A DNA stretch of 34,356 nt from Sorangium cellulosum (GTDB lineage: Bacteria; Myxococcota_A; Polyangia; Polyangiales; Polyangiaceae), in assembly GCA_020720045.1 (NCBI GenBank), contig DYPH01000022.1, positions 1 to 34,356 on the forward strand, in the 5' to 3' direction. Positions 9,501-28,939 of this stretch are shown here, in pieces; position 1 is the first letter of the stretch; each line of letters starts with the position of its first letter. The notes beneath the pieces were generated by a model, which was given only the letters and a program-made list of their open reading frames with translations, was not told where the DNA came from and ran no database searches. The translations under genes and the position numbers were made by a program.

Positions 9501-11419
9501 ATGTCGCGGATAGCCCCATAGAAGTAAGCATTTACCTCCATAGGCTCCCCACCCGAGTGCCATTGAAAATGGTTCGAATAGGTCCCCTTCGGCCGGTGAG
9601 CGATGAGCAGGTCGCTCCGGCCTGTCGCAGGGGCGGTGACGTAAAGCACCTGCTGAACGTCCCCGATGTTCGCCGGCAAATCGTAGCGCACGACCGTCTC
9701 CGCATCGACGAAGACGACAACGCGCGCACCCGCGACCAACGCCGGATAGGACGCAGAGCCGAGGAGCTTCGCACCGGCGATCCCCGTCCTCAACCCCTTC
9801 AGTTCTTTTTCGAAAACGGGCCAGGTCCACTCGTCGAAGAGCCCCCCTCGCAGCGTCGCCGCCAGCGTTTCCGGCCCGCTGACCGCGGTAAGCGCTTCCC
9901 GGATCGCACGCGTCGTCGCGATCGTACGCTCCGGCGACGTCACCCCGGTTGACGTCTTCTGAACGAAGTTCTGTAGGGTATCCTTCGCGCCGAGGAGCCC
10001 GGGAACGGCGACCCCTTTGGCGATCCTGAGCAAGTAGTCTTCACGGGCGCGAATCAAACAGGGCTTTCCAAGGACACACTTTTCGAAGGGCTCTTTTCCA
10101 ATCCCCGCTTCGAGGGTCGTCGCCAGGGCGGAGGCCCATCGTGAATCGGCGAAAATATGCACGGGATCGCGCAGAATACCGGACGGCTCAAAGCGCGCTT
10201 CCGGGGCCGGCTCGACGGCGAGTCCGAGAGCGAGCGCCGCCTCAACGGCGTCCATCAGGTAGCCGCGACCGGCGTGACTGCCGGCGTGCCAGTAGGTCCA
10301 CGCGTCGATGGGGACCGCCCCACCGCTTTGCGTGAGCAGCGGCGCCGACGCTTCGATGAGTGCAAAGTAAGAGGCGGGGAGCGGCACCGATTGCCGGCCG
10401 CGCAAGGCGCCGACAAAGCGGTTCAAACGCCCAAACCAGTCGTGGATCGGGCCACTGCGCGCAACGCGCTTCGGCGCATCAAGGGCGACGAGGAAGTCGA
10501 GCCAACCGAAAATCCCCGATTGAAGCGCCTTGCCGTCAAAGGCGGGAAACAACCCGACAATGCGGTCGCGAATCGCCTCAAGGAGCGGCGATGGGGAGGC
10601 CGTCGAAGCGGAGAGCACCGGGCGATAGGCCTCCCAAAAGTCGGCGGGGGCGCGACGGAGCGACGGGGCGTCGGCGATCGCCTGGAGAAACTCGAGATCG
10701 GCGTCGATGGGGTCGCGCTTGGCGACTTTCGCAAGCTTTCTGAGCTCTTTCGCGAGCCCCGTCATCGGCGGGACCCCGCCCCGAATCCGCGCGACGTGCA
10801 GTTCTCGGTAGCGCCGCTCGCCGGCCGGCGCCCCGAAGGCGGCCATGAGATCGTCCGCATACCCGCCGAACGACTTCGCCGGGACCGCCCCCGCAAGCGA
10901 GAATTCTAGATAGGCCTCTGCGCGCCGATCCTCATCGACAGAAAGCCCAAAGGTGCGCTCGCTTGCGCGCGCCTTCTCGAAGCAGACCGAAGCCATTCCC
11001 GTCGACTCTTCTGCGACGAAGGCACGGCCAGCCTCTTCCCAAAAGGAAGGCAGGAACATGGGCGCTTTCGCCTCGAGCTCCTTCGCAAGAGCGACGAAGG
11101 CGTCTTTCGCGTGGCCCGGCTTCGTCCGAATGCGCGTCGCCGCTCGCCGAAAATCACGCATGATATCCAAGGCAAAGCGCGCATCCTTCGGATGATGCAC
11201 GAGCGCCCACGCGGGGAAGCCGAGGGCACGCGGAGCAGTCGTCCCGACGGTCTTCGCCGGGGACGCCTCCGCAAACCCAAGCACCCCCATCTCGACGTCG
11301 GTCGCGCCGTGGAGCGCCTCGTCGAGGAGGCGAATGACCGTCCGCCCGGGTAGCGCAGGGTGCGTGTAGGATGCAGCGATGAGCGGGCGCGTGGTGCCCG
11401 GGGATGCTTCGGCGGCCAT
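6599..11419 (-). CDS. Giant protein of unknown function, paralogue of the operon giant (1606 aa)
   Basis: Function unknown. The N-terminal block contains ALGFPAWALVHHPKDARFAL, then RDFRRAATRIRTKPGHAKDA and FLPSFWEEAGRAF. The C-terminus contains GREHFLPGPWDAKWGPMETW and ends DLPRFEEAVREKKKR. Both ends match the 1636-residue product at 22834-27744 almost line for line, so these are paralogues. Related giant proteins occur next to MoxR/VWA/SWIM genes in actinobacteria and myxobacteria, sometimes loosely annotated as DNA-binding (from memory). No signal peptide, membrane span or known catalytic motif is visible; it looks cytoplasmic and largely alpha-helical, with an Ala/Thr-rich linker near residues 840-890. 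This copy stands away from the ATPase operon. The ATG at 11419 has no clear Shine-Dalgarno, and a hairpin lies directly before it. Confidence 0.85.
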   Translation of the reverse strand: MAAEASPGTTRPLIAASYTHPALPGRTVIRLLDEALHGATDVEMGVLGFAEASPAKTVGTTAPRALGFPAWALVHHPKDARFALDIMRDFRRAATRIRTKPGHAKDAFVALAKELEAKAPMFLPSFWEEAGRAFVAEESTGMASVCFEKARASERTFGLSVDEDRRAEAYLEFSLAGAVPAKSFGGYADDLMAAFGAPAGERRYRELHVARIRGGVPPMTGLAKELRKLAKVAKRDPIDADLEFLQAIADAPSLRRAPADFWEAYRPVLSASTASPSPLLEAIRDRIVGLFPAFDGKALQSGIFGWLDFLVALDAPKRVARSGPIHDWFGRLNRFVGALRGRQSVPLPASYFALIEASAPLLTQSGGAVPIDAWTYWHAGSHAGRGYLMDAVEAALALGLAVEPAPEARFEPSGILRDPVHIFADSRWASALATTLEAGIGKEPFEKCVLGKPCLIRAREDYLLRIAKGVAVPGLLGAKDTLQNFVQKTSTGVTSPERTIATTRAIREALTAVSGPETLAATLRGGLFDEWTWPVFEKELKGLRTGIAGAKLLGSASYPALVAGARVVVFVDAETVVRYDLPANIGDVQQVLYVTAPATGRSDLLIAHRPKGTYSNHFQWHSGGEPMEVNAYFYGAIRDIVTPLGTSFGGPILAPGERFEKWEIHAQTISNGREHWLVSAGERLGCFPVDNALKKLGGRTEWPACFAAFAEVSDGASVAALSLTPARPGSEHSPVAGGANGVGGMLRRKQVAGGGTFDYQRADGARFRGDFDFQALVDIPFGPTVPFRAAAANYQSDERFTILNGSGVSVSAVGSGVTPSAGFLRLPRASSLQNLRVRDAATSRALRATTTATATTLLAAAAADRAASAAPGAPKGVPPSAAATERAIQEAFPGIDPVLVGAIASQVFGAHELVQRIDALCNPPRSEASAGEATTGTTAVALRDGAVAEAMHLGRSLVARSDGGDVRTGYGLAAAALAGPLVPEVLPIPSHFAWETIVEGLPQAVAFFLARPFPGTGESPRDALRAFATALRDTPLAGDFVRVAVQASITTAWVTACPKGQLAYVISSDKIKGWESLSPRNVLVRLGAGNATTAGLRAVTLFLRATLEEGVVPPADATGSVERVVVTAKTALLDAAIARSEPVPVPTGKAGVAVLAALVAGTTLEVADVRLLLAGLPNFGTWTSDFLGEKIRKAVDLKMADAKVSKERWKRYSARPEFLSFLAACLPAPEAFGDDAAHLAAAEATIRQRYSASIAVPDATVALVTKRLAWKGDVRVVLTDFATGASRVGNFSEDSVLGTTPEKPVFPAPETLASFAKVLVLLANEGAEEDPVRRGLPGTFRRLVAALRDPRLVVALPMVYLSETAAKEQYLATFGGAPVTFRNAAGNEQTGREVDGLLVTEERWGVSRCFRPARLDGPLRDKVAAAIGAESAYGTDAARAALFLTSSEVTGLVEGIVSSSPTIHVDPRVSAPDVVAAARRKFPHFSEESVVVYLVLLAAATPTRKGLEALVGGAAAFEAAAAPLVADGLLVTGTREKAGREHFLPGPWDAKWGPMETWKAQLYDRTFFALALPLEPMGVLYKKAWERVDAGDLPRFEEAVREKKKR

Positions 11420-15051: not shown

Positions 15052-16221
15052 GTGAGGACCGACCGCATTCGCTTTGATCGGCAGGAGCTCGCCGGCGCCT
15101 TCGGCGACATCGGCACCGACCTTCCGCTCCTCCTCGCGCTCGTAGGGACCTGCCACTTGGACCCTACGAGCGTTCTCGTTTGTTTCGGCCTTGCCCAAAT
15201 CGCCACCGGAATTCGCTACGGCCTGCCGATGCCGGTCCAGCCGCTCAAGGCGATGGCCGCTGTAATGCTTGCGAAAAAGCTTGGTACGGGGGTGCTTACC
15301 GCCGGCGGTGTCGTCGTCGGCGCGGCGATGGCGATCCTCGTCGCGACGGGCGCCCTCCAGCACCTCGCGCGCGCGGTCCCGAAACCGGTCGTGCGAGGGA
15401 TTCAGCTCGGCCTCGCCATCACCCTCGCCACCCTGGCGCTCAAGGAGTACGCCGCCGCCGACGGGCTGCGCGGCTACGTGATCGTCGCAGTCGGCTTCTG
15501 CGTGCTCTTTCTCGCGCGAAATCGGAAACTTCCGGTGCCTGCGCCGCTGATCGTGATGGCGGGGGGCGTCGCCTACGGGCTGTTGACAAAGGCCGACCCG
15601 AGCCACTGGAAAGGGGCATTTGGGTTCCATCTTCCCCATTTGATCGTCCCGAAATCCCACGATTGGATCGATGGCGCGTTGCTGCTTGCCCTCCCGCAAA
15701 TTCCCCTCTCGCTGGGGAACTCGGTCATTGCCACGAGTGACACGACCAAGGCGCTCTTCCCCGAGCGCCCGGTCGCGGTGCGGTCGATCGGCGTCACCTT
15801 CGCCGCCATGAACCTCATCGCCCCGTGGTTCGGCGGCTTCCCGACCTGCCACGGCTGCGGCGGCCTTGTTGGCTTTTACGGCTTCGGTGCGCGGACGGGC
15901 GGCGCCGCTATCCTCTACGGGGCCGCCTACCTTGCCGCCGGTCTTTTTGCAGGGCCCGCCTTCGCCGATCTCGCGCTCGTCTTTCCGCTGCCGATCCTCG
16001 GCGTCGTGCTTTTTGTGGAGGCGCTCGGCCTGGCCACCCTCGCCGCCGACGGGGGCGCGCCGGACGCGGGGATCGCCCCGTGGACGATTGCGGTCGTCGC
16101 GGCGGCGGTCGTCGCCCTCCCCTACGGCTACGTGGTTGGCCTTCTCGCAGGGACGCTGTTCCACGTCGCCGCCGAACGGGGCTGGATTCGCGTCGCCGCG
16201 AACAATCCGGAAACGCGCTAA
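15052..16221 (+). CDS. MOT1-family molybdate/sulfate transporter-like membrane protein
   Basis: A 389-residue inner-membrane protein with about ten hydrophobic spans. Diagnostic stretches are ELAGAFGDIGTDLPLLLAL (12-30), PVQPLKAMAA (61-70) and LPQIPLSLGNSVIAT, characteristic of the MOT1 branch of the SulP-related transporters, which carry molybdate at high affinity in plants and algae. Bacterial members are usually assigned by similarity only, so molybdate is likely but sulfate or tungstate cannot be excluded. The start is GTG at 15052, 32 bases after the GST stop. Its TAA stop (16219-16221) interlocks with the TAG stop of the convergent SWIM gene (16218-16220). Confidence 0.82.
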   Translation: MRTDRIRFDRQELAGAFGDIGTDLPLLLALVGTCHLDPTSVLVCFGLAQIATGIRYGLPMPVQPLKAMAAVMLAKKLGTGVLTAGGVVVGAAMAILVATGALQHLARAVPKPVVRGIQLGLAITLATLALKEYAAADGLRGYVIVAVGFCVLFLARNRKLPVPAPLIVMAGGVAYGLLTKADPSHWKGAFGFHLPHLIVPKSHDWIDGALLLALPQIPLSLGNSVIATSDTTKALFPERPVAVRSIGVTFAAMNLIAPWFGGFPTCHGCGGLVGFYGFGARTGGAAILYGAAYLAAGLFAGPAFADLALVFPLPILGVVLFVEALGLATLAADGGAPDAGIAPWTIAVVAAAVVALPYGYVVGLLAGTLFHVAAERGWIRVAANNPETR

Positions 16222-18038
16222 TTTTTCAATGCGAGTTCTGCCAGCCAGGCCGCCTTCGCAAACGTCCCTTCGGCGGCGTAAAGGTAGGCAGTCGCGGCGA
16301 CGAAGCGTTCGGCGGCAGCGCGACGATCGTGCCCACCAGCCGCCGCGAAGAGGGCGGTCAACAGGGCAGCACCGCCACGAAGGAAGGCCCCATCGAGGTG
16401 AGCGGCATCTTTTCGGAGGGCCTCGTGAGCGCTCGCTGGCAACGAACCACGCCCCGCGAGCGCATAGCGCTCCAGGCGACGGCGTAGCGGCATGAGCGGG
16501 TCGCCGTGGGTGGGCGCCTCCGCGGCGAGCGACGGGGCCGCCGGCGCGGAAGCCGCAGGATCGACGTCGACGGCAGGGCGCGGGAAGCGCGCATGGCGCA
16601 CCCGGTCGAAGGCCAAATTGACAATCGACTTTTCCTCTTCATCAAAGGGGAAAAGCTTCGGCGCCTGGCTCACGCCATCGTCATCCGTGCCTTCAGGTAC
16701 CCTCAAAACACTTCCAGAAACAAGCGCGAGTGGGACGACCATCGCCTCGGTCCCCGGCTCGAGTCGCGCGATCAAACGCGTTTGAACGACGTTCTTTGCG
16801 AGCAAAGAGAGGTTCTCGCGAAAGGCGAAGCGCGGATCGTCAATGGCGACACGCACCCCCACCGTGACGGTGGCATCCCCAACGTTCGTCGTCGCCCGCT
16901 CGCGCGGATCGAGGAAAAAGTGGGCCACGAAGACCGGGCGACCGGCGGCGTTCTCCGCAAACACGCCGTCGAGGAAGACGAGCCCCTGCCCGGCCGCCGT
17001 CGCCGCGCGCGCGAGCTGGTTGGCGAGCGGCTCCGCGAAGAGGGCGTCGCGGACGGCGGCATCGGCCTTCGTCGAAGCGACGACGACCTCTTTTCCGGCG
17101 CCGAGGCGACCGTTCGCGGCGACTTTAGCAGCAGCAAATACAAGCCCTTGGCGACACGCTTCGCGTTGGGGAAGGCTCACTTCTCCGAACCGCAGCGGGG
17201 CGTCGTAGGCGGCGACGGCCCGCTCCGCGGAGCCGGGCATCACGTCCCCCGCGGAAAACAGGCGCTTCCCGTCGGAAAAATGCGTCACGACGCCCGCCTG
17301 CCCGCCGACAAGAATCGGTTCGCAGCAGAGCCCGGTCAGTCGCGCGGAACCATATGCATGATACACGTTTCGCGCGATGCCGACCGCCGTCGCGTCTCCT
17401 CGGCGGAGGCGCTGGGCCAGCGTAAGCAATTCCGCGAGGTCCCGCGTGGCGTCGCTCAGTCGAAAATCAGGGTCGTCGCTCGCACGCTGACGGAGCGCCA
17501 CAAACACGCGAAGGAGCGCCCCTTCAATGGCAGGAACGCCGAGTTTTCGCGCTTCGAAGGAGACGCGGAGTAGGGTCGCCGTGCGGAGCGCCGAGGTCGC
17601 GGCAAAGCCGGCGGCGAGCACGTCGGCTCCGATGGCAAACGCCGCTTCGCCAACGGCGATTTCCGACGGAGAGAGACTCTCGGTCGCCCCTGCGTCGGCA
17701 CTAGCTAGCGCGGCCGGCGCCTCGTTCGACGCCCCGGCGGCGCCCGGGAGGGCGACAGGGAGCACGGAAAGAACCGCCGCTGCATGAAAGCACTTCGGTG
17801 AAAGAAGACAGGTACATTGAACCTGGGAAAGATCGGCAATCAGCGATTCTTTCGGATGCAGGGTCACCTTCTCTTCGCCGTCGGTTGCAACGGAGATCGC
17901 TGCATCCTGCACCGACCATGTCCAGCCTTCGGCGGTCGTCGGCGCACCGTCGAGGCGCTTCTTCATGCGCGCGGGGAGCGCCTCCAGGAGGCTCGCGAGC
18001 AGCTCGGGCGTGAGATTCGGTCGCTCTTGGGCAGTCAT
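16218..18038 (-). CDS. SWIM zinc-finger protein (YehQ-like), last gene of the MoxR/VWA operon
   Basis: A 606-residue protein with a SWIM zinc finger near the N-terminus: Cys75-x-Cys77 and Cys83-x-His85 in QCTCLLSPKCFHAAAVL. SWIM fingers bind DNA or proteins. The rest is predicted mixed alpha/beta with no enzyme motif; a Pro/Ala-rich linker (about 495-520) separates a C-terminal helical part ending in YLYAAEGTFAKAAWLAELAL. The start ATG overlaps the previous gene's TGA (ATGA, 18035-18038), indicating translational coupling. A longer open frame begins 27 bases upstream but would not fit the coupling. The neighbourhood matches E. coli yehQ, also last in its MoxR/VWA run. Exact role unknown. Confidence 0.85.
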   Translation of the reverse strand: MTAQERPNLTPELLASLLEALPARMKKRLDGAPTTAEGWTWSVQDAAISVATDGEEKVTLHPKESLIADLSQVQCTCLLSPKCFHAAAVLSVLPVALPGAAGASNEAPAALASADAGATESLSPSEIAVGEAAFAIGADVLAAGFAATSALRTATLLRVSFEARKLGVPAIEGALLRVFVALRQRASDDPDFRLSDATRDLAELLTLAQRLRRGDATAVGIARNVYHAYGSARLTGLCCEPILVGGQAGVVTHFSDGKRLFSAGDVMPGSAERAVAAYDAPLRFGEVSLPQREACRQGLVFAAAKVAANGRLGAGKEVVVASTKADAAVRDALFAEPLANQLARAATAAGQGLVFLDGVFAENAAGRPVFVAHFFLDPRERATTNVGDATVTVGVRVAIDDPRFAFRENLSLLAKNVVQTRLIARLEPGTEAMVVPLALVSGSVLRVPEGTDDDGVSQAPKLFPFDEEEKSIVNLAFDRVRHARFPRPAVDVDPAASAPAAPSLAAEAPTHGDPLMPLRRRLERYALAGRGSLPASAHEALRKDAAHLDGAFLRGGAALLTALFAAAGGHDRRAAAERFVAATAYLYAAEGTFAKAAWLAELALKN

Positions 18039-21000
18039 CGTCCACGGACCCTTTCCCCGATCCATCCGGCGAGTTCTTCCGGCGAAAGTGCCGCAATCGG
18101 CATCCCCGCGCCAGCGACACGCTCGGCAATTCCCCGGTGAAAACGAGGAGCTCCGCGATCATCAAGGGCAGCGAGGCCGAGCGCGGTGATTCCCGAGCCG
18201 ACGACGTCGCGGACTTCCGCGATGAGCGTCGACACCGATGCCCCCTCTTCGAAGTCGCTGACGCAGACGAGGAGCGTTCGTGAGGGGACGCGGGCGAGCG
18301 TCCGCGCGAAGCGGATCGCGCCGCCGATGTTCGTCCCGCCACCGATGCGAATGCCGAGGAGGAGTTCGAGGGGGTCGTCGACGTGTTCGGAGAGGTCGAC
18401 CACGCCGTCGGAGAAGGTGATGAACTTGGTCGAAAGTGCCGGTATTTTTGCCAAAATTGAGGCAACGAGTGCCGCGTAGATCGTCGACGGCTCCATCGAT
18501 CCGGAGACGTCTACGAGGAGGACGACCTGCCAGTCGACGCTCTTTTTCGCCCGCGTCTTGAAGAAGAAGTCCTTTGGCGTCAACGCGTAGCCGTCCTCGG
18601 CGCGGGCGCTGCGGGGGCGGGCGGTGCCGAGGTTTTCGCGAATCGTCCGCCGGAGATCGAGGGGGCCTCGGGCGCGCCGCGAGGGGCGAGGCGTCGCGAG
18701 ACCGCTCAGCGCCGGTCGGATACGGGTCGCGAGTTCGCGGGCGAGCGCAGAAACAATTTTCTCAATGAGTTTGCGAAGATGAGCGAGGTCCTTTTCGCCG
18801 AGGCCGCCGCGCAGGGCGAGGAGCTGTTCGAGGAGCGCCACGGAAGGCTGCACGGTCTCCGGGTCGAGGGCGGTCGCCGCAGCGCCGTAACCGGCCTCCG
18901 CAGCGGCACCGAGGACCTCCTCGCGGACGCGATCGCCAAAGAGGGTCGTGAGTTCGTCCGCCCACTCGCGGGCCGTCGGAAACGGGGCACCGCGGCCAGC
19001 GCCGCCGCCCTCGCGGGAGCCTTCGCCGTGCCCCTGGCCATAAAGCTCATCGAGGGCGCGCCCGAAGGGGGCCGCTGCGCCGCTCAAGCGCTCGGCCTCG
19101 CGCCCGAGCAAAAGCCGCAGGCGGTCGGCAAGGGTGAGGCGTCGCCCCTCCTTGTCGGAAGATCCTGTCTTTACGGCATCTTCTGCGCCTACGGGCGCGA
19201 GCGCCGTACTCGTCTCCAAGCCACCGAGGCCGAGGGCAACAACGGCGGCACTCCCGGCCGCGTCGGCCTCTGCACCAAACGCCAAGAGCGACGGGTCGGC
19301 CGCGATGGTAAGCAGGCCGGCCCCCTCCCCGAGCGCATCGAGCATCCGCTGGCGGCCTGCCGCCGAGAGCACGTCAAACCCACGACGAAGCGACGGAAGT
19401 TTGTGAAGGAATACCGCTTCTTCCAGCGAATCAATACCGGCAAGTACCGCGTCGGTGAATGCAGGGTCCCCCTCAAAGCGCGGCCCACCGAGCACGAGTG
19501 CGCCACGAATGCGACCCGAGCGCTCCTGAGCACCGTTCGCGTCGTCCGTCCCGAACTGGAAAAAGGAGACAAAGATATTTGAAAATTCTGATCGCGCCGT
19601 CTCATCCAAGAGCGCCTGGGCGGCGAGCGCGGCACCACGCAGCAACGGGCTGCCCTGTTCGGCGAAGCGCCGGATCGCGTCGGTCAGAAGCAAGGGGACG
19701 GGGCGCCCTTCCTCGCGATCGGTGTAGAGCGCAACCACTTCGGCGAACGCCTGGACGTCGCTGTCCTGAGTCGACCCTTCGACGCCGGAAAGGGCGGCGA
19801 GCGCGGCGGCGAGGAGCGCCTCCTGGGCGGCGGGAAAGTCGGTTTGAGGCTTCGCATCGGTGGTGGAAAGGCCGACGATATGCCCTTCGACGATACGCCC
19901 CACAAACGCAAGAAGTGCAACAAGTTCGGCGAACGAAGCCGACGGAATGAGTTCACCATTCAGTCGCGCAAAGAGTTCATCAACGAGAGCGGGTAGAGCC
20001 GCTTCGGCCGCCTGCTCGGCCAGCTCAAGCCAGGTGCCGACCGTCATCGCGTCGTTGGCTACGAGGGCGTGCGCGGGGGCATGGGAAGCGGCCTCGGCGC
20101 TGCCGGTCGCGCGGCGGAGGGCGGCACGCAACTCCCCTTCGGCCGCCTGGGCGAGCGTGATCCCGAAGAGGCTCGCAAGCTCGATCCGCGCCGCAGTTTC
20201 TGGGGTGAATTGGAGGCGATAGCGCTTGGTCAGCGTCGGGAGCGTGCCACGCGCCCCTTGGACGGCGTTGTGACGACGCTCCGCGTAGGGGATCCCGCAG
20301 ACGGCGAGGCGCGCAATCGCGATCGCCCGCTTCGCATCGAGGGGGGAACGCAGCGGATCCAGCGTGATCTCATCCGGTTTTTTGCTGGTCCCCGACTTCG
20401 GCGTGCTGTGGAGGCCCGGCAGACGAAGCTCCTCAAAGACGGCGTCGACGTGGGTAGCGAGCCCGGAACGGGGCGCCCCCGGTGGCAGACGGCCACGGCG
20501 CTGACCAACAAGGACCGCTTCGAGCGCTTTCGCGACGACGCGCCCGCGACCGAGCGTCTCCCCTTGGAGCATCGCGCTCTCGATCGCTTCGAGAAGCTCG
20601 CGACGGCCCGGAGCCGGAAGGTTACGCAAAGCACTCAATTCATTGGCAATTCGCGCAGCCTCGCGGACGTCGGCAAAGGAGGCGACGTGCCCCGCCTGGC
20701 GAACTTCGCGGGCGATGGCGACGAGGAAGCCGGCGAGCACCGGCTCCAACGAACTCTTGGCGACGAGCTGCTCGTAGAGGGCCTGCACGAGGGCCGGATC
20801 GCGAATGCCGGCCGGGTAGCCGCTGCGACTGTCAAACAGGGCAAAATCGTAGGGGACGATCGACGCGCGGACCGGCGCTGGTGCCGGAGCTAGTTCCGTC
20901 TCCACCGCGGCGGCGAGGAGCGCTTCCGCGTGAAAAGAGCCCACAATCGCCACAGGTCGGGCGCCGGGTACCTTAAGTGCATTCTGCACATGTCTGCGCA

Positions 21001-21619
21001 TTTCCGCTTCGCGCAGAAGGTCGCGGGTCGGCACGCGGGGGTCGAGGTTTCGGGTCATCCAACCGAAGAGGAGCGCACCACGACGAATCGCTTCGGCGGC
21101 GTTCGTCGCGCGACTCGGCGCGTGCCCCTCGACGAGGCGGTCCCACAACTCCTCGATATCGACCGACGCGCGCCCACCATCGGCCGCCTCGTGGGCGTCG
21201 TCGGTTGCCGCCTCACGGACGCGCGGCGGCAGCGGCGCTCCGACGGCGCGATCGATGGCGATCACCGGAACGTTTGCCGCCCGCGCCCAACGCACCGCCG
21301 CCAATTCGGGCGAGAAGTCGGCGAACGGATAAAAAGAGACCCCCTCCCCGACGAGCGGGGCCGCCGCCAAAGCGACCGGCGCCTGCGTGGCCGGGTCGGA
21401 GAGCCAAGGGAGGAGATCTTGGAGATCGGTCGGCAATTCGAGAAGAATCACCGTCGGTTGGTAGCTCGCAAGGAGCTCGGGAATCGCCGCAGCGAGCGCC
21501 GGCGAGTGGTGGCGGACGCCGATAAGCCAAGGGGCCGTCGCGGAGGCGAGCCGCTCCAGCGATGCGGCAGCATGTTCGTCGAGGTTACGCGGAGTGGCCG
21601 TTGGCATCGTCGTCCCCAT
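18035..21619 (-). CDS. DUF5682-VWA fusion protein (YehM-like plus YehP-like)
   Basis: A 1194-residue protein joining two parts that are separate genes in E. coli (YehM about 760 and YehP about 380 residues, from memory). Residues 1-750 resemble DUF5682: WLIGVRHHSPALAAAIP (31-47), VILLELP (57-63), FYPFADFSPELAAVRWA (96-112), VIAIDR and VGSFHAEALL. The C-terminal region from about 1030 is a von Willebrand A domain with a complete MIDAS metal site: Asp1037-x-Ser1039-x-Ser1041 in VDVSGSM, Thr1096 in GGGTNIGG and Asp1122 in VSDFEEG. VWA proteins beside MoxR ATPases act as partners or substrate adaptors. The ATG at 21619 is preferred, five bases after the ATPase stop; ATG 21607 is an alternative. 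It is coupled to the SWIM gene by ATGA. Confidence 0.88.
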   Translation of the reverse strand: MGTTMPTATPRNLDEHAAASLERLASATAPWLIGVRHHSPALAAAIPELLASYQPTVILLELPTDLQDLLPWLSDPATQAPVALAAAPLVGEGVSFYPFADFSPELAAVRWARAANVPVIAIDRAVGAPLPPRVREAATDDAHEAADGGRASVDIEELWDRLVEGHAPSRATNAAEAIRRGALLFGWMTRNLDPRVPTRDLLREAEMRRHVQNALKVPGARPVAIVGSFHAEALLAAAVETELAPAPAPVRASIVPYDFALFDSRSGYPAGIRDPALVQALYEQLVAKSSLEPVLAGFLVAIAREVRQAGHVASFADVREAARIANELSALRNLPAPGRRELLEAIESAMLQGETLGRGRVVAKALEAVLVGQRRGRLPPGAPRSGLATHVDAVFEELRLPGLHSTPKSGTSKKPDEITLDPLRSPLDAKRAIAIARLAVCGIPYAERRHNAVQGARGTLPTLTKRYRLQFTPETAARIELASLFGITLAQAAEGELRAALRRATGSAEAASHAPAHALVANDAMTVGTWLELAEQAAEAALPALVDELFARLNGELIPSASFAELVALLAFVGRIVEGHIVGLSTTDAKPQTDFPAAQEALLAAALAALSGVEGSTQDSDVQAFAEVVALYTDREEGRPVPLLLTDAIRRFAEQGSPLLRGAALAAQALLDETARSEFSNIFVSFFQFGTDDANGAQERSGRIRGALVLGGPRFEGDPAFTDAVLAGIDSLEEAVFLHKLPSLRRGFDVLSAAGRQRMLDALGEGAGLLTIAADPSLLAFGAEADAAGSAAVVALGLGGLETSTALAPVGAEDAVKTGSSDKEGRRLTLADRLRLLLGREAERLSGAAAPFGRALDELYGQGHGEGSREGGGAGRGAPFPTAREWADELTTLFGDRVREEVLGAAAEAGYGAAATALDPETVQPSVALLEQLLALRGGLGEKDLAHLRKLIEKIVSALARELATRIRPALSGLATPRPSRRARGPLDLRRTIRENLGTARPRSARAEDGYALTPKDFFFKTRAKKSVDWQVVLLVDVSGSMEPSTIYAALVASILAKIPALSTKFITFSDGVVDLSEHVDDPLELLLGIRIGGGTNIGGAIRFARTLARVPSRTLLVCVSDFEEGASVSTLIAEVRDVVGSGITALGLAALDDRGAPRFHRGIAERVAGAGMPIAALSPEELAGWIGERVRGR

Positions 21620-21624
21620 GGCGG

Positions 21625-22797
21625 TCACTCGCCTTCGAGGCGGGTGCGGAGGTCGTGGAGCGTCTTCCACAACCATGCGTTCTTGACCTCGGGCCCGCCA
21701 TCGGCGCGGCGCTTGACGGGGCCGTCCCAGTAGGCGAGGAGGCGCGCGCGGTCCTTCGGTTCGTCCTTCTCGACGACGCCGCGAAGGTAGCCAGGGACTA
21801 GGCTCAAAGGGTCGCGATCGCTCGGCAAATAGGCGGTCTGTAGTGCGATGGCGCTCGCAACGCCGACCGCTTCCGCGGTGCTCATGACAGCGTTCGGCTT
21901 CTCGACGGCATACCCTTCTGCGGAGCGCCCGAGGCGGAGGTCCCGAAAGATGGTGACGACCGCCTCAAGGACGGCGTCGTCGACCGGTAGTGGCGTCCCG
22001 CTACGGGCAAGCGTCTTCGTGGTGCGCTCTTTGACGAGCGCCGTTTCCTGATTTGCATCCCCGATGGACGGGACGATCTCAAAATTGAAACGTCGTTTGA
22101 GGGCGGCAGACATTTCCGAGACGCCGCGATCGCGGAGGTTTGCCGTCGCGATGACGTTAAACCCCTGATTGGCGAACTCGACGTGCGGCTTGTCCCCACT
22201 GAGTTCAGGGACCGAGAGGCGACGATCGCTCAAGATCGAGACGAGAGCGTCCTGAATCTCGGGCAGGCATCGCGTCACCTCTTCGATGCGGGCGATCGCC
22301 CCGCCGCGCATCGCCGTTAGCACCGGCGACGGCACCAGCGCCTCCGGACTCGGCCCCTTGGCGAGGAGCAAGGCGTAGTTCCAGCCGTAGCGGAGCTGGT
22401 CTTCCGTCGTCCCGGCGGTCCCCTGGACGGTGAGGGCGCTTGTGCCGCTGACCGCCGCCGAAAGGAGCTCGGAAAGCAAGGACTTCGCCGTCCCCGGCTC
22501 GCCGACAAGGAGGAGCCCCCGCTCACCGGCGAGCGTGACGACGGCGCGCTCGACGAGGGCACGGGCCCCGACGAACTTGGCGCCGATCGTCAGGGTTTTC
22601 GGCACGTCCTTCCCGTCGGGGAGCGCGCGAGGTTTTGCCCCCTTTGGAAGCTTCAGCGCCTCGCCGTTAGATCCCATGACGAAGGTCACCACGGCGTTGG
22701 CAGTCAGCCGAAAGCCGGGTGGGCGCACCCCCGTGTCGTAGGCTTCCAAAAAGGCGAGTTCGTCCGCGTAGAGGAGTTCCGCAGGGGGGCTTTGCAT
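21625..22797 (-). CDS. MoxR-family AAA+ ATPase, YehL subfamily
   Basis: A 390-residue AAA+ ATPase. Walker A is GEPGTAKS (99-106), the Walker B region is AIARIEE (167-173), sensor 1 is in NVIATAN (Asn220), and the arginine-finger region is ALKRRFNF (233-240). The stretch LTVQGTAGTTEDQLRYGWNYA and the downstream EALVPSPVLTAM are close to what I recall for E. coli YehL. The Walker B motif reads R-I-E-E instead of the usual hydrophobic run plus D-E, apparently a subfamily trait. MoxR rings pair with VWA proteins to remodel or mature partner proteins; the partner here is probably the next gene's product. GGAAAGAG lies upstream of the ATG. The gap to the preceding giant gene is 36 bases. Confidence 0.92.
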   Translation of the reverse strand: MQSPPAELLYADELAFLEAYDTGVRPPGFRLTANAVVTFVMGSNGEALKLPKGAKPRALPDGKDVPKTLTIGAKFVGARALVERAVVTLAGERGLLLVGEPGTAKSLLSELLSAAVSGTSALTVQGTAGTTEDQLRYGWNYALLLAKGPSPEALVPSPVLTAMRGGAIARIEEVTRCLPEIQDALVSILSDRRLSVPELSGDKPHVEFANQGFNVIATANLRDRGVSEMSAALKRRFNFEIVPSIGDANQETALVKERTTKTLARSGTPLPVDDAVLEAVVTIFRDLRLGRSAEGYAVEKPNAVMSTAEAVGVASAIALQTAYLPSDRDPLSLVPGYLRGVVEKDEPKDRARLLAYWDGPVKRRADGGPEVKNAWLWKTLHDLRTRLEGE

Positions 22798-22833
22798 GAT
22801 GGTCTCTTTCCGTACTTCGCGACTTCGTTCAGA

Positions 22834-25800
22834 TTACTTGGAAGACTTCTTTGCCGTTTTCTTGGCCCGAACCGCTTCTTCAAAGCGCGGCGTATCTCCA
22901 TTTTCGATGCGCGCGTACGCACGCTCAAAGAGGAGGTGAAACGGCAGAAGCGCCATCGGTTCGCCGAAAAACTTCGGGTCGTAGAGGGGCGCCTTCCACG
23001 TCTCCATCGGGCCGAACTTCGCGTCCCAGCCGCCTGGCAAGAAGTGGCCGCGCCCGGTCTTTTCGCGCTTCCCCTCGACAAAGAGCCCCTTCTCCGCGAG
23101 TTCCGCGCAGGCCTTTGTGTAGGCGGCCGGTTTCCAGCCGTTGATGGCGCAGACGGCCTTCGTCGTCGGTTGCGGGAGGGCCAGCGTCTGGAGGTAGAGC
23201 GTCGCCCCCTCCGAGGAAATCCCCTGGTCTTTGGCGACTTTGGCAACGAGCTTCGGTGCCGAAATCGCCGGATTGGTCTCGAGGGAGCCGGCGGCGACCG
23301 GCGTCTCGCGGAGCCGCGCGACGACCGCCGCGCAGTCCTCGGAGAGGAGGTAGAGGGCCGCACGGACGCCATCGCCCCCGTAACGGTCTTCGTCATCGCC
23401 AGAACCGTTGAGGAGCGTCAGGATACGCGCGCGTTCCGCGGTAATTTCCGACGTTCGAACGAAGATCTCGATCTCATTTCCATCTTCGACCGCGAGGACA
23501 ACACCGTCGTCCTTTGCCGCCCACTCCTGCTCGTCCTTCTTGAGCTTCCGCTCCGTTCCGCCATAGCGCGCGAAGAGGGCGGCGCGCTTCTTTGCGTCGT
23601 ATTCGTAGGTGCTCGGGAGCGCGAAAAAGCGATTCTTCTCCAGGAGTTCCCCGCGAAGCCGATCGTAGATTTCCGGCAGTGCCGTCCGGAAGGGATCGCC
23701 AACGGGGAGCGTAGCGGCGAGGAACGGCAGGAGCTGGGCGAGATCGACAAAGGGGGATTCATCGAGGAACAGCACTTCGCTTCTCGGTAGGCCGAAGCGC
23801 TCGCCGGAAACGAGGCCAGCCCCGCGGAACATCTCCGCGTCGGGGGTGCGGAGGGCTGCCAGCACCTTTCGGGTGGCCCCTTCCAGGGAGAGCTGCTTTT
23901 CGCAGACGGCAATGAGCTCTTCCGGGACGGCGATTTGGGCGCCGAGATGGGTCGCCACCGCCGCCTGGAACGCTGCGTAGCCATCCCGCCAGAGGTCACC
24001 GTCCGCGGGAACGCGGGTGGCATCGGCAAGGAATTTCGGGAAGTAAGGCTCGCGAGAGGTTTCGCGAAGGCGGTCCTTCGCCTGCGCGGCGTCGCGTAGC
24101 TTCAGGTCGAGGGCAGTCCGAAGTTCCGCGCCGAGGAAGTCGTGGGTCCAGGTGCGGAGGTTCGGGAGGCCGGCGAAGATCAGCGTCGCGTCAACGGGGA
24201 GCAACGGCGTCCCCTCAACAGCGGCCGCAATTTTCGCAGCGTCAGTCGCGGGCACGTAGGGGACCGGACCATGGGCGTCGTAGGCGGCGAGGACCTCGGT
24301 GAGGAACCGATGATCGTCGGGGACGGTGATCGTCGTGAAGTCGCCGGTCGCATCGGCAGGCACTGAAAATCCCTGGGTATTGTCGCGATCGGCGACGACG
24401 AGCGTGAGCTCGTAGGGGGTCTGTGGCTCATCGTCGTCTTCGCTCGTAACGCGGACGAAGGCGATGCGGCCGTCGGCGAGCTTGGCGAGGAAGGTGTCGC
24501 GCCCCTTCGGCCGCTGGGCGAGGACCCCTTTGCCGACAAGGACCTTCAGCGCCGCCACATGGAGTGTCGCTCCGAAGAACGCCGACGCCTGCTCGGCGAC
24601 CGATCCGAGGAAAGCCCGATAGGCGCTCCGCGATTCTGGATCGTGGTGGGGGCGCGTCATCAGGAAGACGAGCGCGCGAACAAACGTTGCTGCGTGACGC
24701 TCCCAGGTCACTTTTGAATCGGGAATCGGCACCACATTCCCGTCGCCGAGGAGTGCGGAGATAATCAGCGGGAACGCAAGATCAATTGGACCATTTTGGT
24801 ACCCCTCGTCAAAATCAAAGGGAACATTCTGGAGAAGGGTACTGTCGCTTCGCCCCGATTTTGTGGGAGCTTCCGTCGCGGAAGCCTCCGTCAACGCACC
24901 AAGGCGTTGCTCGAGGGCCACTGCGCGGGCGAGGACCTGTGCAATCGCCTTTTGAAGGACGACATCGACGCCCGGGAACGCCGTCGCGAGCGCTGCAGTC
25001 GTCGCCGGCCACGCCGGAAAGGCGTCGTCGGTCGGGTCTTTCTCGTCATCATCGTCGTCGTCGTCGTCGTCGTCATCATTGTCGCCGTTTTCGCTCGCTT
25101 TTGGCGGGGGCACATCGGCACGGGCCCCCCCGAGAAGCGCCTCAACGGTCGCCTCGTCAACGGCGCGAAGGGCGGCGCTGGTCCTTTCATCGCGGGTGAC
25201 AAGGAAGTGGAGCCAGTCGACACGCGGCGTGCGCGCGAAGCCGGCGAGACGAAGACCGCTCGCGCCGAAAGCGCCAAGGGTCTCCCCGTCTTCCCCCTCA
25301 AAGCTGTACGTGTCGTCCCGCGTATCCGACCAGCCCGACGAGACGTCGAGCCGTCGGGTGCTTCCGTCGCCCGGCATCGAGAGGAGGGCGTCCGGCAACG
25401 ATGTGGATGTGTACTTCACCCCGTCCACGCGGACGTGTTCGCGCATGTCGGCGGTATCTTGATGCGATTGAATGCGTCGGTAGAAACCGACGAAACCATC
25501 TTTGAAGCCGAGCGGTGACTTCTCCGCACCGTTCGGCGCGGGCATGTAGGTTACCCCAGCAAGGCGGAAGCCGTCGCTCGCCTCGGAGATCGTCTGGAGA
25601 TGCTTTGGCCAGGAGGCGCGCCCCTTGGCGAAGGTCTGCAGGTCGACCTCAACGAGCTTGAACGGCTCGTTGTACGTGTGCTGGGCACGGAAGAGCTGCG
25701 TGCCGTCAAAAATCAGGTTGCCGCTCGTATCGAGCTTTTCGACGGCATCGCCGGGGCGGACGGGCGGGCCGCCGTAGGTCACGACGCCACCAGGGAGCGG

Positions 25801-27744
25801 AATGTCTTCGGGAATGTCCCGGAAGTAAAACTCGCCCTCGTGGATGTCCTTCGGGGCCTTCATCCACAAGTATTTGCGATCGTACGATTTTTTCTCCCGG
25901 AAAGAGACGAGCAGGTCGCCGCCCATCGGCTTCGTCGGCTCTGCGCAGACGTACATCGTCCGCTCGACACGCTCGACGATGGCGGGCAGGTCGTAGCTGC
26001 GGAGGACGGTCGCGCCGTCAAAGACGACGACGCGCTGCCCGAAACGCAAAATCGGGTGGCGCGCCGTCCCCTCGACGGCAATTTCCTGCGGTTTTACTGT
26101 CGCTTCCGCGAGCGTTTTCTCCCACGCGGGCCAGGCAAACTCATCAAAGAGGCCCGACTGCAGGGTCTTTTGAGCGGCCGGCGTAATCTTGACGGCGGCG
26201 AGGGCCTCCTTCGCCTTCGGAAATTCCGCATAGATCGCCGGTGTCGTCTTTGATTCGAGGGTTCGCAGCGCCGCTTCCATGCCGGGAATACCGCCGGAGA
26301 GCGCATCGATCAAAGAATGGAGACAGGCCCGGCGAGCCTCGACGAAGCCCTTCTTCCCGGCTGCTTTTGCTTCAAAATTGGGATTGCCGAAAACGCCAGA
26401 AACTGCAGATTTCAGCAGTCTATTCCAGGCTTCACTCGCTTCGATCAGAAGCGGGTCCTTCTCAATCGCCGTCGAGAGCTCAAACGAGGAATTCTCCGTC
26501 TTCGGCTTCGCAACCAAGCCGAGTTCGAGGGCTCGCTCGATGATGTCGGTCTGGTATTCGGCGTCTTCCCCGGACCAACGCTCGTAGATCGCGAGTTCCA
26601 CAGGAGTCTTCTCCGCGGCAAGTCGCGGCGCGAGCGCCTCAAGGAACGTGAAATAGGCGGCGGGGAGCGGCTTCGGGTCGCGTCGCCAGCTGTCATGGAA
26701 GGTCACGAACTGGGTGAGCGCCGCCAGCCATGCCGCCGCCTCTTCGGCGGGGCCGGCGTTCAGGGTCGCGACGACGCCGATGTCGGCGAGGAGATCGAGC
26801 CAATCGGCGAGGAACTTTTCGAAGCCCTTCGGCTTGGGGAAAAGATCGCGAATACGCTTACTTGTGATCGAATCCTTCTTCGCCAAGACCCGGAGCGACG
26901 CGCCGTAGGCGACCCAGAAGTCGGCCGGAGCTTTTGCGAGCGATGGGGCCTCGAGGACGGCGACGAGGAACTCGCCGTCCGCTTCCGCTTCGGGGCGCTT
27001 CGCCTCCTTCGCGAGCTTACGGAGCTCCTTCGCGAGACCGGTGAAAGGCGCCACACCCCCTCGAATTCGATGCACATTCAGCGTCCGATAGCGGCGTTCC
27101 GCCTCCAGGGCGCCGAAGGCTGTGACCAGCTCGCTCGCGTAGCCGGCCAGCGATTTGGCAGGCACTGCGCCGGCAAGGGTGAACTCGAGGTAGGCGTCGC
27201 CGCGACGGTCTTCGTCGACGACGAGCTTGTAGGCGCGTTCGGCGGCGCGTGCCTTTTCAAAGCAGGATCCCGCCATCGCCGGGCTATCTTGATCGAGAAA
27301 TGCGCGCCCTGCTTCCTCCCAGAAGCTCGGAAGAAATGCGGGGACCTTCCGCTCAAGCTCTTTGCCGATTTCGGCAAAAGCATCACGGGCGTGCCCGGGC
27401 TTCGTCTTGATGCGATTCGCTGCACGGCGGAAGTCACGCATCACGTCGAGGGCGAAGCGCGCATCCTTCGGGTGGTGGACGAGCGCCCAGCTCGGAAAGC
27501 CAAGCGCGCGCTTTTTCGCGCGACCGACCGATGTCGCCTCGCCATGGGGCTCGAAGCCGAGCACGCCCATCTCCGCGTCGACGGCGGCCGCAAGGCTCTC
27601 ATCAGCCAGGCGGACGATCACGCGATTGACGAGCGCAGGGTGCGTGAAGGATTTTGCCAAGAAAGGGGACGCCACGTCGGCGTCCGTCTTCGCGGAAAGT
27701 GCTGCGATGCCGCCCGCAAGGACGAGGGAATTTCCATCAAGCAT
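22834..27744 (-). CDS. Giant protein of unknown function in the MoxR/VWA operon (1636 aa)
   Basis: Paralogue of the 1606-residue product at 6599-11419, sharing an N-terminal block (SFTHPALVNRVIVRLADESL, ALGFPSWALVHHPKDARFAL, FLPSFWEEAGRAFL) and a C-terminal block (GRGHFLPGGWDAKFGPMETW). No catalytic motif, signal peptide or membrane span is visible; it is predicted cytoplasmic and multi-domain, probably a scaffold or client-binding partner of the ATPase (inference). An acidic linker with 11 consecutive Asp (25045-25077) divides it into an N-terminal part of about 890 residues and a C-terminal part. The start MLDGNSLVL at 27744 is chosen because AGAGGA lies six bases upstream and it overlaps the preceding WGR gene by eight bases (ATGCTTGA); the open frame extends 54 more codons upstream inside that gene and is a shadow. 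Confidence 0.85.
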   Translation of the reverse strand: MLDGNSLVLAGGIAALSAKTDADVASPFLAKSFTHPALVNRVIVRLADESLAAAVDAEMGVLGFEPHGEATSVGRAKKRALGFPSWALVHHPKDARFALDVMRDFRRAANRIKTKPGHARDAFAEIGKELERKVPAFLPSFWEEAGRAFLDQDSPAMAGSCFEKARAAERAYKLVVDEDRRGDAYLEFTLAGAVPAKSLAGYASELVTAFGALEAERRYRTLNVHRIRGGVAPFTGLAKELRKLAKEAKRPEAEADGEFLVAVLEAPSLAKAPADFWVAYGASLRVLAKKDSITSKRIRDLFPKPKGFEKFLADWLDLLADIGVVATLNAGPAEEAAAWLAALTQFVTFHDSWRRDPKPLPAAYFTFLEALAPRLAAEKTPVELAIYERWSGEDAEYQTDIIERALELGLVAKPKTENSSFELSTAIEKDPLLIEASEAWNRLLKSAVSGVFGNPNFEAKAAGKKGFVEARRACLHSLIDALSGGIPGMEAALRTLESKTTPAIYAEFPKAKEALAAVKITPAAQKTLQSGLFDEFAWPAWEKTLAEATVKPQEIAVEGTARHPILRFGQRVVVFDGATVLRSYDLPAIVERVERTMYVCAEPTKPMGGDLLVSFREKKSYDRKYLWMKAPKDIHEGEFYFRDIPEDIPLPGGVVTYGGPPVRPGDAVEKLDTSGNLIFDGTQLFRAQHTYNEPFKLVEVDLQTFAKGRASWPKHLQTISEASDGFRLAGVTYMPAPNGAEKSPLGFKDGFVGFYRRIQSHQDTADMREHVRVDGVKYTSTSLPDALLSMPGDGSTRRLDVSSGWSDTRDDTYSFEGEDGETLGAFGASGLRLAGFARTPRVDWLHFLVTRDERTSAALRAVDEATVEALLGGARADVPPPKASENGDNDDDDDDDDDDDEKDPTDDAFPAWPATTAALATAFPGVDVVLQKAIAQVLARAVALEQRLGALTEASATEAPTKSGRSDSTLLQNVPFDFDEGYQNGPIDLAFPLIISALLGDGNVVPIPDSKVTWERHAATFVRALVFLMTRPHHDPESRSAYRAFLGSVAEQASAFFGATLHVAALKVLVGKGVLAQRPKGRDTFLAKLADGRIAFVRVTSEDDDEPQTPYELTLVVADRDNTQGFSVPADATGDFTTITVPDDHRFLTEVLAAYDAHGPVPYVPATDAAKIAAAVEGTPLLPVDATLIFAGLPNLRTWTHDFLGAELRTALDLKLRDAAQAKDRLRETSREPYFPKFLADATRVPADGDLWRDGYAAFQAAVATHLGAQIAVPEELIAVCEKQLSLEGATRKVLAALRTPDAEMFRGAGLVSGERFGLPRSEVLFLDESPFVDLAQLLPFLAATLPVGDPFRTALPEIYDRLRGELLEKNRFFALPSTYEYDAKKRAALFARYGGTERKLKKDEQEWAAKDDGVVLAVEDGNEIEIFVRTSEITAERARILTLLNGSGDDEDRYGGDGVRAALYLLSEDCAAVVARLRETPVAAGSLETNPAISAPKLVAKVAKDQGISSEGATLYLQTLALPQPTTKAVCAINGWKPAAYTKACAELAEKGLFVEGKREKTGRGHFLPGGWDAKFGPMETWKAPLYDPKFFGEPMALLPFHLLFERAYARIENGDTPRFEEAVRAKKTAKKSSK
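25045..25077 (-). repeat. GAC/GAT triplet run encoding eleven aspartates
   Basis: On the minus strand the run reads GAT, seven GAC, two GAT and GAC, giving 11 Asp in a row, next to Asn-Asp and an acidic Glu-Lys-Asp context. It lies in the linker of the giant protein. Because the unit is a codon, slippage would change linker length without breaking the frame. Confidence 0.9.
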
Positions 27745-28939
27745 TTTCGTCCTCTTTCTTTTCGATCTTCCGCTTGCCGTAGAGAGCACTCGCCATACGC
27801 ATGCCTTCCGAGAAGGCGATCGGCGGCACGTCACGCACGCTGAGTGTCGTTTCCGTGCCATCGGCACTCGAGGAGACCCACACGAGATTCTCCGTGTAGG
27901 CCTCACTCATCGGGTCGTCGGCGCCGATCCAGAAGCGCGCTTCAATGGTCTTCGCCGAACCCGGATTAAAGACGCGGCAGACGGTCCATCCGCCGGAAAC
28001 CCGGTAGCGGAGCGCCTTCGCGGCGCCGCGCGCGTGGGCGAGCATTTCGAACTCGCCGCCACGGAATTTCTCGACAGAAGTTGAGTCGAGTTCCTTGGCG
28101 TCGGTCGGCTTGGCAAAAACCTCCCGGAACAGCTGTTTGGTACCTTGGCTGAGCCCCAACTCGGCGGCGAGGCCGCGCCACTCGTCGAGCTCGCCGAGCA
28201 AAATCGGGTGGGGAACGAAAAACGCTGCGGTCTTGTGCCACTTCGTCTCGCCGTCGAGATCTACAACGCCGACGCCGCGCTCCGCCGAAGCCCCCTTCAA
28301 GAACCCCGCCGCGTCCAGTTCGGGAGCCCCTTTTTTGTCGACGGGGGCGACAATGAGGTTCTCCAAGACTTCCTTGTAGGTTGCATCGATCCACACGGCC
28401 GCGAGCACTTCGGCAGGTGTCGGCAGCGAGCGGAGCATCCACCCTTCGGCGGTCGCCTCGCACTCCTTCGCGTGGGCGGCGAGGAAGTCGCGAACTGCGA
28501 TCAAGCGCTCGGCAACCTCCCCATCTTTCACCTCTTTCGGGACGGCGCTGAGGAGCTTCCCTTTGTCGTTCTTGCAGACAAGCTTGCCGTCGCGGAGGCC
28601 AAGAGAATACCCCTTACCGGCGTCGACGAACCCCTCTTCCGGCGCCGCCGGCTCCACCTCTTTGGCCGCTTTTGGTGCCTTCTTGGTGACGGGGGCCGCT
28701 GCGACGGGCGCTGCACCGTCAGCGGTGGCGACTGCGCCGACTTCCGCGTAGCCCTTCTTCGTCTTTTCCTTCACGAGCTTGTCGTGTTCGGCGATGGCGG
28801 CCGCCTCCGTTGCGAGCTCCTTCAGTTGCGTTTGGCCCGCTGTTCCGATCTTCCCGAAGGTGACGGTGAGCGAAGTACCGTCACGGGTGATCTGCCAGAA
28901 TTTATTAGAAGAACCGTCGGAAAATTCGAAGCGGCGCAT
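27737..28939 (-). CDS. WGR-DUF4132 protein (MolR/YehI-like), first gene of the operon
   Basis: A 400-residue protein. Residues 1-70 form a WGR domain (RRFEFSDGSSNKFWQITRDG, then VTFGKIGTAGQTQLKEL), with the eponymous Trp-Gly-Arg replaced by Phe-Gly-Lys; WGR domains in PARP and MolR-type proteins contact nucleic acid or protein partners. A Lys/Ala/Pro-rich linker (about 75-105) leads to a C-terminal region resembling DUF4132: AAFFVPHPILLGELDEWRGL, GTKQLFREVFAKP and WTVCRVFNPGS. WGR plus DUF4132 is the MolR/YehI arrangement. E. coli MolR was named for an effect on molybdate metabolism but its biochemical role is unclear. ATG 28939 is preferred over ATG 28951, since AAGG directly abuts the latter. 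Its stop overlaps the next gene by eight bases. Confidence 0.85.
   Translation of the reverse strand: MRRFEFSDGSSNKFWQITRDGTSLTVTFGKIGTAGQTQLKELATEAAAIAEHDKLVKEKTKKGYAEVGAVATADGAAPVAAAPVTKKAPKAAKEVEPAAPEEGFVDAGKGYSLGLRDGKLVCKNDKGKLLSAVPKEVKDGEVAERLIAVRDFLAAHAKECEATAEGWMLRSLPTPAEVLAAVWIDATYKEVLENLIVAPVDKKGAPELDAAGFLKGASAERGVGVVDLDGETKWHKTAAFFVPHPILLGELDEWRGLAAELGLSQGTKQLFREVFAKPTDAKELDSTSVEKFRGGEFEMLAHARGAAKALRYRVSGGWTVCRVFNPGSAKTIEARFWIGADDPMSEAYTENLVWVSSSADGTETTLSVRDVPPIAFSEGMRMASALYGKRKIEKKEDENA

Follow-up and report, generated by a model that had tools for sequence, protein, structure and literature searches.

Do the five genes that lie together on the minus strand at positions 16218-28939 of a Sorangium cellulosum contig (DYPH01000022.1; the whole stretch of 34,356 nucleotides analysed is called the window) encode a single machine, and what might such a machine do? 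In order, they specify a WGR-DUF4132 protein, a giant protein, a MoxR ATPase, a fusion of DUF5682 with a VWA domain, and a SWIM zinc-finger protein. A sequence-only reading had proposed this operon, had likened it to molR/yehI, yehL, yehM, yehP and yehQ of E. coli, and had taken the fusion as a link between its two halves and the ATPase. The layout was borne out: the WGR-DUF4132 and giant genes overlap by 8 bp, 36 bp separate giant from MoxR and 5 bp MoxR from the fusion, and the fusion and SWIM genes have an ATGA in common at their junction. Pfam searches found WGR, DUF4132, AAA_5, DUF5682 and VWA_CoxE in the operon proteins, as that reading had expected.

Scanning named genomes with the giant protein (using alignment A3, the first alignment, A1, being too diverse for a contig scan) yielded 78 giant-bearing loci in Actinomycetota and Myxococcota. 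The operon stays whole in many soil bacteria: all five parts are present in the same order in 63 of the 78, and the incomplete loci comprise 14 cut by a contig end and one orphan giant (L074). DUF5682 and VWA are fused in every giant-type locus that has both (65/65), and a fusion recurs in a second, separate clade of the MoxR tree (L033, L035, L036, L039 and L042), so that the argument from fusion is stronger than originally put. Among 284 genomes of the window's phylum, Myxococcota, DUF5682 scored above cut-off in 57; the giant was found in 15, of which 13 also had DUF5682 (Fisher p = 2e-8). This co-occurrence, together with the 63 loci that keep all parts, argues that the operon is not a chance arrangement. 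Over 59 complete loci, the pairwise identities of six domains correlate at 0.83-0.96, a range that includes shared species history and is thus evidence of joint inheritance, not of contact. Mean identity in these loci was highest for MoxR (78%) and lowest for SWIM (45%) and the giant (41%); the latter two diverge faster than the motor parts. That the five genes form one evolutionary unit is well supported by these observations.

A candidate activity for this unit comes from the fusion protein (gene 4; 18035..21619, minus strand; 1194 amino acids). The N-terminal 240 or so residues of DUF5682 belong, with good support from profile homology, predicted structure and motif residues, to the TraB/TIKI/EreA/ChaN superfamily. 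Seven residues in this region (H37, E61, E105, D123, R203, M207 and H230) are invariant across 80 DUF5682 sequences, many just 20-25% identical to the window protein; an earlier set of 62, E. coli included, also had a handful of essentially invariant residues within the first 230 positions. When the N-terminal domain was compared with a TraB alignment by HHalign, the match reached 98.0% (E 2.3e-13), against 0.4% or less for seven decoys (reversed and column-shuffled) and three unrelated families. The aligned motifs pair GVRHHS with GTAHIS, LLELP with CVELD, SPE with GAE, AIDR with LVDR, REAEM with ERDLFM, and VGSFH with VGAAH, DUF5682 being named first. Of seven sub-threshold hits to the DUF5682 hidden Markov model that were fetched from the phylum survey, six were TraB-type proteins by motif.

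The predicted structure points the same way. In an AlphaFold2 model of DUF5682 (predicted local distance difference test, pLDDT, 87), residues 27-240 (20900..21541, minus strand) aligned in VIA-align (VIA) with chain DQ/E of Tetrahymena complex IV at Z 9.1-9.3. Tetrahymena complex IV includes a TraB-family subunit (PMC10060162), which, judging from the fold, we infer to be this chain. C. jejuni ChaN (Z 7.7) and the Ere-type proteins 3b55, 2rad and 2qgm (Z 5.8-5.9) also matched. ChaN, Bcr135 (3B55) and TIKI have been grouped into a single superfamily, marked by a His/Glu site together with a conserved basic residue (PMC6254334). Because the VIA matches are joined by the independent HHalign and TraB-type hidden Markov model hits, we consider superfamily membership well supported; a hydrolase activity of DUF5682 is the putative consequence. 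The placement gives the family a specific, testable prediction, in the form of named residues and hydrolase activity.

The remainder of the fusion and its neighbours tie the operon to the E. coli yeh locus. Pfam assigned residues 66-953 of the 1213-amino-acid open reading frame to DUF5682 (5e-129) and residues 982-1205 to VWA_CoxE (PF05762, 1e-49), and the N-terminal 750 residues of the fusion do match DUF5682/YehM. The VWA domain (18062..18733, minus strand) has a metal-ion-dependent adhesion site (MIDAS; DVSGS ... GGT ... SDF), whose DxSGS is kept in all 66 VWAs of the giant-locus set. By BLAST, the N part is 28% identical to YehM and the C part 37% identical to the whole of YehP. Gene 3 (21625..22797, minus strand) encodes a MoxR AAA+ ATPase (AAA_5, 8e-38) of the YehL subfamily, 46% identical to E. 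coli YehL; Walker A and Walker B are intact in 73/73 MoxR homologues of the giant-locus set, and the MoxR tree gathers all giant-type loci in one clade (100/100). Its score for bpMoxR was 20.8 bits, below the cut-off of 27. A short N-terminal MoxR motif, YADEL, was rejected as a general feature, being present in only 51/127. The E. coli K-12 order is yehI, yehK, yehL, yehM, yehP, yehQ, and the window operon shares the yehI-L-M-P-Q order, so that the likeness to E. coli holds in gene order, BLAST and profile matches alike. On the strength of the BLAST and profile matches, the operon keeps the yeh order, except that M and P are joined in one gene and the giant gene sits between those for the YehI-like and YehL-like proteins; in E. 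coli, by contrast, YehM and YehP are separate genes and there is no giant. The yehK gene has no match elsewhere in the locus set.

The assignment of the VWA domain to VWA_CoxE and the presence of ChaN, which binds haem as a non-enzymatic member of the superfamily (PMC6254334), among the structural matches of DUF5682 bear on a different reading, in which the operon matures a metal or cofactor enzyme. MoxR and the CoxE-like VWA would load an enzyme in the manner of CoxD/CoxE or Mg-chelatase, DUF5682 would bind a cofactor as ChaN binds haem, and the MolR/molybdate name, attached in the literature to related WGR/DUF4132 proteins, would be meaningful. An MFS_MOT1 molybdate transporter gene (15052-16221, plus strand) does adjoin the operon, convergent with it, but apart from the window only the sister strain (L072) has it there; all other loci lack it, and we therefore rejected a molybdate link through MOT1 as coincidence. 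No metalloenzyme gene recurs beside the operon, and in profile comparison DUF5682 matches TraB-type hydrolases and retains every one of the seven motif residues. We regard cofactor maturation as unlikely.

The larger part of DUF5682 is a helical repeat in the AlphaFold2 model, and assembly and maturation are the main tasks of the MoxR-VWA pairs known so far (PMC3893208). Both observations would fit a regulatory or assembly chaperone without catalysis that remodels a large complex, the role suggested for RavA-ViaA on complex I; DUF5682 would then be purely structural or bind peptides. Seven active-site-type residues that stay invariant over 80 sequences of such low identity would be unexpected in a purely structural module, and we hold this reading to be somewhat less likely still.

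The first and last genes of the operon also have E. coli counterparts. Gene 1 (27737..28939, minus strand; 400 amino acids) encodes a WGR domain (28739..28933, minus strand; PF05406, 2e-18) and a DUF4132 domain (28019..28561, minus strand; PF13569, 2e-19), and a profile comparison pairs this DUF4132 protein with the C-terminal portion of YehI (97.8%); YehI itself is one long protein with DUF4132 toward its C-terminal side. WGR is a nucleic-acid-binding domain in PARPs. Besides the window and the sister strain, it occurs in one further giant-type locus (L032) and in some YehI-type proteins, and was not found in the actinobacterial homologues, where DUF4132 is kept. DUF4132 is the conserved part of gene 1; the WGR domain listed by the sequence-only reading is lineage-specific and, judging from these homologues, dispensable. 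Gene 5 (16218..18038, minus strand; 606 amino acids) is a YehQ homologue (97.0% in a profile comparison). Its Pfam match to SWIM is below cut-off (0.026), but the CxC..CxH motif is present and kept in 93 of 94 homologous open reading frames. SWIM-type proteins accompany the MoxR-DUF5682-VWA core in most subtypes.

The giant (gene 2; 22834..27744, minus strand; 1636 amino acids) matched no family in Pfam, NCBIfam or PADLOC searches, and no solved structure was matched by sequence. An AlphaFold2 model spanning residues 540-1636 (pLDDT 81.9) opens with some 24 strands, predicted to form a beta-propeller at residues ~540-851 (25192..26127, minus strand). Over residues 1-312 of the model, most VIA rows are propeller-type chains, and many of these come from scaffold proteins that combine a propeller with a solenoid; Z did not exceed 6.5, below the value of 8 under which a match may reflect only a common arrangement. 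A compact helical domain at the C-terminus (22903..23271, minus strand), winged-helix-like by eye, is modelled with pLDDT mostly above 90 and forms a block conserved in alignments A1 and A5. The modelled part of the giant thus probably runs from a propeller through helical repeats to the compact helical domain at its C-terminus. E. coli has no counterpart of the giant; the idea that the giant is a split-off part of YehI was rejected, with a profile match of 0.1%. Neither the TraB/TIKI-like domain, the giant's lack of an E. coli counterpart, its probable propeller, nor the paralogue described next figured in the sequence-only reading.

A second, full-length giant (6599..11419, minus strand; 1606 amino acids; 37% identity with the operon giant along its full extent) lies about 5 kb downstream of the operon, with plus-strand gpmI, GST and MOT1 genes between. 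Similar orphan giants occur in L074 and, away from the operon, in genomes G087, G019 and G038. In the single-contig genome G087, a MoxR-fusion-SWIM set (L026) has no adjacent giant, and a giant lies 4 Mb away. The two giant-bearing Myxococcota genomes without DUF5682 (G026 and G191) are of the same genus, and no MoxR or DUF5682 of this kind was found in them; in these genomes the giant may serve some separate function.

Beyond the giant-type loci, MoxR, DUF5682 and VWA were nearly always together across 60 fetched neighbourhoods. In the E. coli YehI subtype, DUF5682 and VWA are fused or not. A second subtype (L012-L020), in which MoxR, DUF5682 and VWA are unfused, adds a HEAT-like protein (DUF5691) and one of SWIM type. 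A third (L066-L071) has the order VWA-MoxR-DUF5682 plus a small protein that is SWIM-like by eye and has no Pfam match (for example, L068:3865-4656). Common to all subtypes are MoxR, DUF5682 and VWA, which a SWIM-type protein and a helical-repeat partner usually accompany. The window's own genome contains a second DUF5682 system (G000 contig C342, L008:28-5194), ordered VWA-MoxR-DUF5682 with a 1011-amino-acid frame; its MoxR belongs to a different clade from that of the operon and groups with the L066-L071 type.

Distribution also bears on whether the operon could be an anti-invader conflict system, in which the TIKI-like domain would be a toxic effector released once the giant or SWIM protein senses a phage or plasmid. 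MoxR-VWA ternary conflict systems with peptidase domains have been described (PMC7159879), occurrence in Myxococcota is patchy (the 57 of 284 genomes above), the giant and SWIM proteins diverge fast, and two Actinoplanes operons (L083 and L095), otherwise intact, have two and three tandem giant genes. The presumed effector, however, is one invariant domain, as opposed to the variable effector set typical of such systems, and six proteins tested against PADLOC anti-phage models gave no meaningful match (best weak hits 0.026-0.054). The window neighbours are ordinary metabolic genes, and in E. coli the yeh locus is near-core, being present in 5288 of 5426 complete genomes (97%), almost all chromosomal; this near-universal presence argues against a mobile defence island there. 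In a search of phages and plasmids, matches came from a single unannotated phage record and from 40 plasmid records, of which several are mega-plasmids or entire chromosomes; there was thus no sign of a phage-borne system. The phage record (MT835988.1, 9359-12560) holds a 30%-identical DUF5682/VWA match in a 14-kb 'Bacteriophage sp.' from faeces that may be a bacterial contig. A role in conflict is, in our judgement, improbable.

We instead favour, at a little under an even chance, a multi-protein, ATP-driven MoxR-VWA machine with a built-in hydrolase. By analogy with other MoxR-VWA pairs, the metal site of the VWA domain would grip a peptide or partner, and the YehL-type MoxR ring would pull or remodel it with ATP. 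The TraB/TIKI domain of DUF5682, fused to the VWA, would then cut the remodelled substrate, most likely a protein, as its fold and residues suggest. The SWIM and DUF4132 proteins (the latter here with WGR) and the giant may bring in targets or keep the parts of the machine assembled. A response to stress or damage is the likely setting, though weakly supported: DUF4132/WGR genes of D. radiodurans are induced on DdrO depletion (PMC8533742).

Several points weigh against this machine. Foldseek with the DUF5682 model gave no match in the PDB below E 0.04, the value of its top row, which is the same Tetrahymena complex IV chain; a sequence search of the PDB returned nothing useful, and the fold call rests on VIA-align and profile homology. 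The superfamily has non-enzymatic members (besides ChaN, PMT is without the catalytic 2His/2Glu set; PMC6254334), so that a complete site is no proof of cleavage; what is cleaved might also be an ester or a small molecule instead of a protein. The DUF5682-VWA fusion is the only direct indication of physical contact, and catalysis and biological role are inferred. For the damage-response setting, the DdrO-linked induction in D. radiodurans is indirect (PMC8533742), a lead rather than support for this operon, and SOS control was rejected: Gram-positive LexA-type boxes (this motif only, one mismatch allowed, approximate start codons) lay upstream of the DUF4132 gene in 11 of 75 loci other than the window, against 13.7% of random stretches, so that there is no enrichment.

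The machine, and the E. coli yeh locus along with it, could be narrowed further to a new class of ATP-dependent protease, in which a MoxR ring and a MIDAS VWA adaptor would feed a TIKI-type peptidase, with the giant propeller/helical protein, SWIM and DUF4132/WGR directing it toward nucleic-acid-associated targets. We offer this version as speculative and rather doubtful. We know of no AAA+ protease whose active site is of the TIKI type.

A chlorophyllase/PETase-like alpha/beta hydrolase gene (30003-31088, plus strand) lies upstream of the operon, and a DUF4246 protein gene (4204-5691, plus strand), with a weaker 2OG-Fe(II) oxygenase match, is an ordinary neighbour. Neighbours that recur beyond the operon reflect lineage synteny only.

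MoxR-VWA pairs and the YehL subfamily name are already known (PMC3893208); the new elements are the TraB/TIKI assignment of DUF5682, the family of giant proteins and the fused operon in its strict five-gene form. Among the open-licence papers searched, there was no mention of DUF5682 and no function was found for yehL-yehQ; the yehL-M-P core is in 97% of complete E. coli genomes, yet the literature searched offers no settled function. The giant is a large conserved protein family without a Pfam or NCBIfam entry in the versions searched, and the fused five-gene operons of actinomycetes and myxobacteria reveal which of the parts form a set. The L012-L020 type has the same three-protein core, the DUF5691 HEAT-like partner and a SWIM-type protein, but its MoxR forms a separate clade and it has no fusion, giant or DUF4132. 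In RavA-ViaA of E. coli, too, a single operon supplies both a MoxR ATPase and its MIDAS VWA partner (PMC3893208); this pair differs in belonging to the RavA subfamily and in that no hydrolase, SWIM, DUF4132 or giant has been described for it.

The MoxR-vWA ternary conflict systems, for which peptide capture by vWA and then MoxR action have been described (PMC7159879), resemble the operon in having a MoxR and VWA core with a third protein, in the propeller predicted for one of the components and in occurring in multicellular bacteria. Their third component is VMAP, iSTAND or FtsH, none of which had a Pfam match in the five operon proteins, whereas the window operon has DUF5682 there and no variable effector set; their propeller is fused C-terminal to the VWA, whereas in the window it is predicted in the separate giant and the VWA stands at the C-terminus of the fusion. 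With the TraB/TIKI/EreA/ChaN superfamily, DUF5682 residues 27-240 share fold, profile homology and all seven signature residues. Unlike other TraB/TIKI members, the DUF5682 domain is part of a larger, helical protein that is either joined to a VWA or encoded next to one, and it has a MoxR motor dedicated to it.

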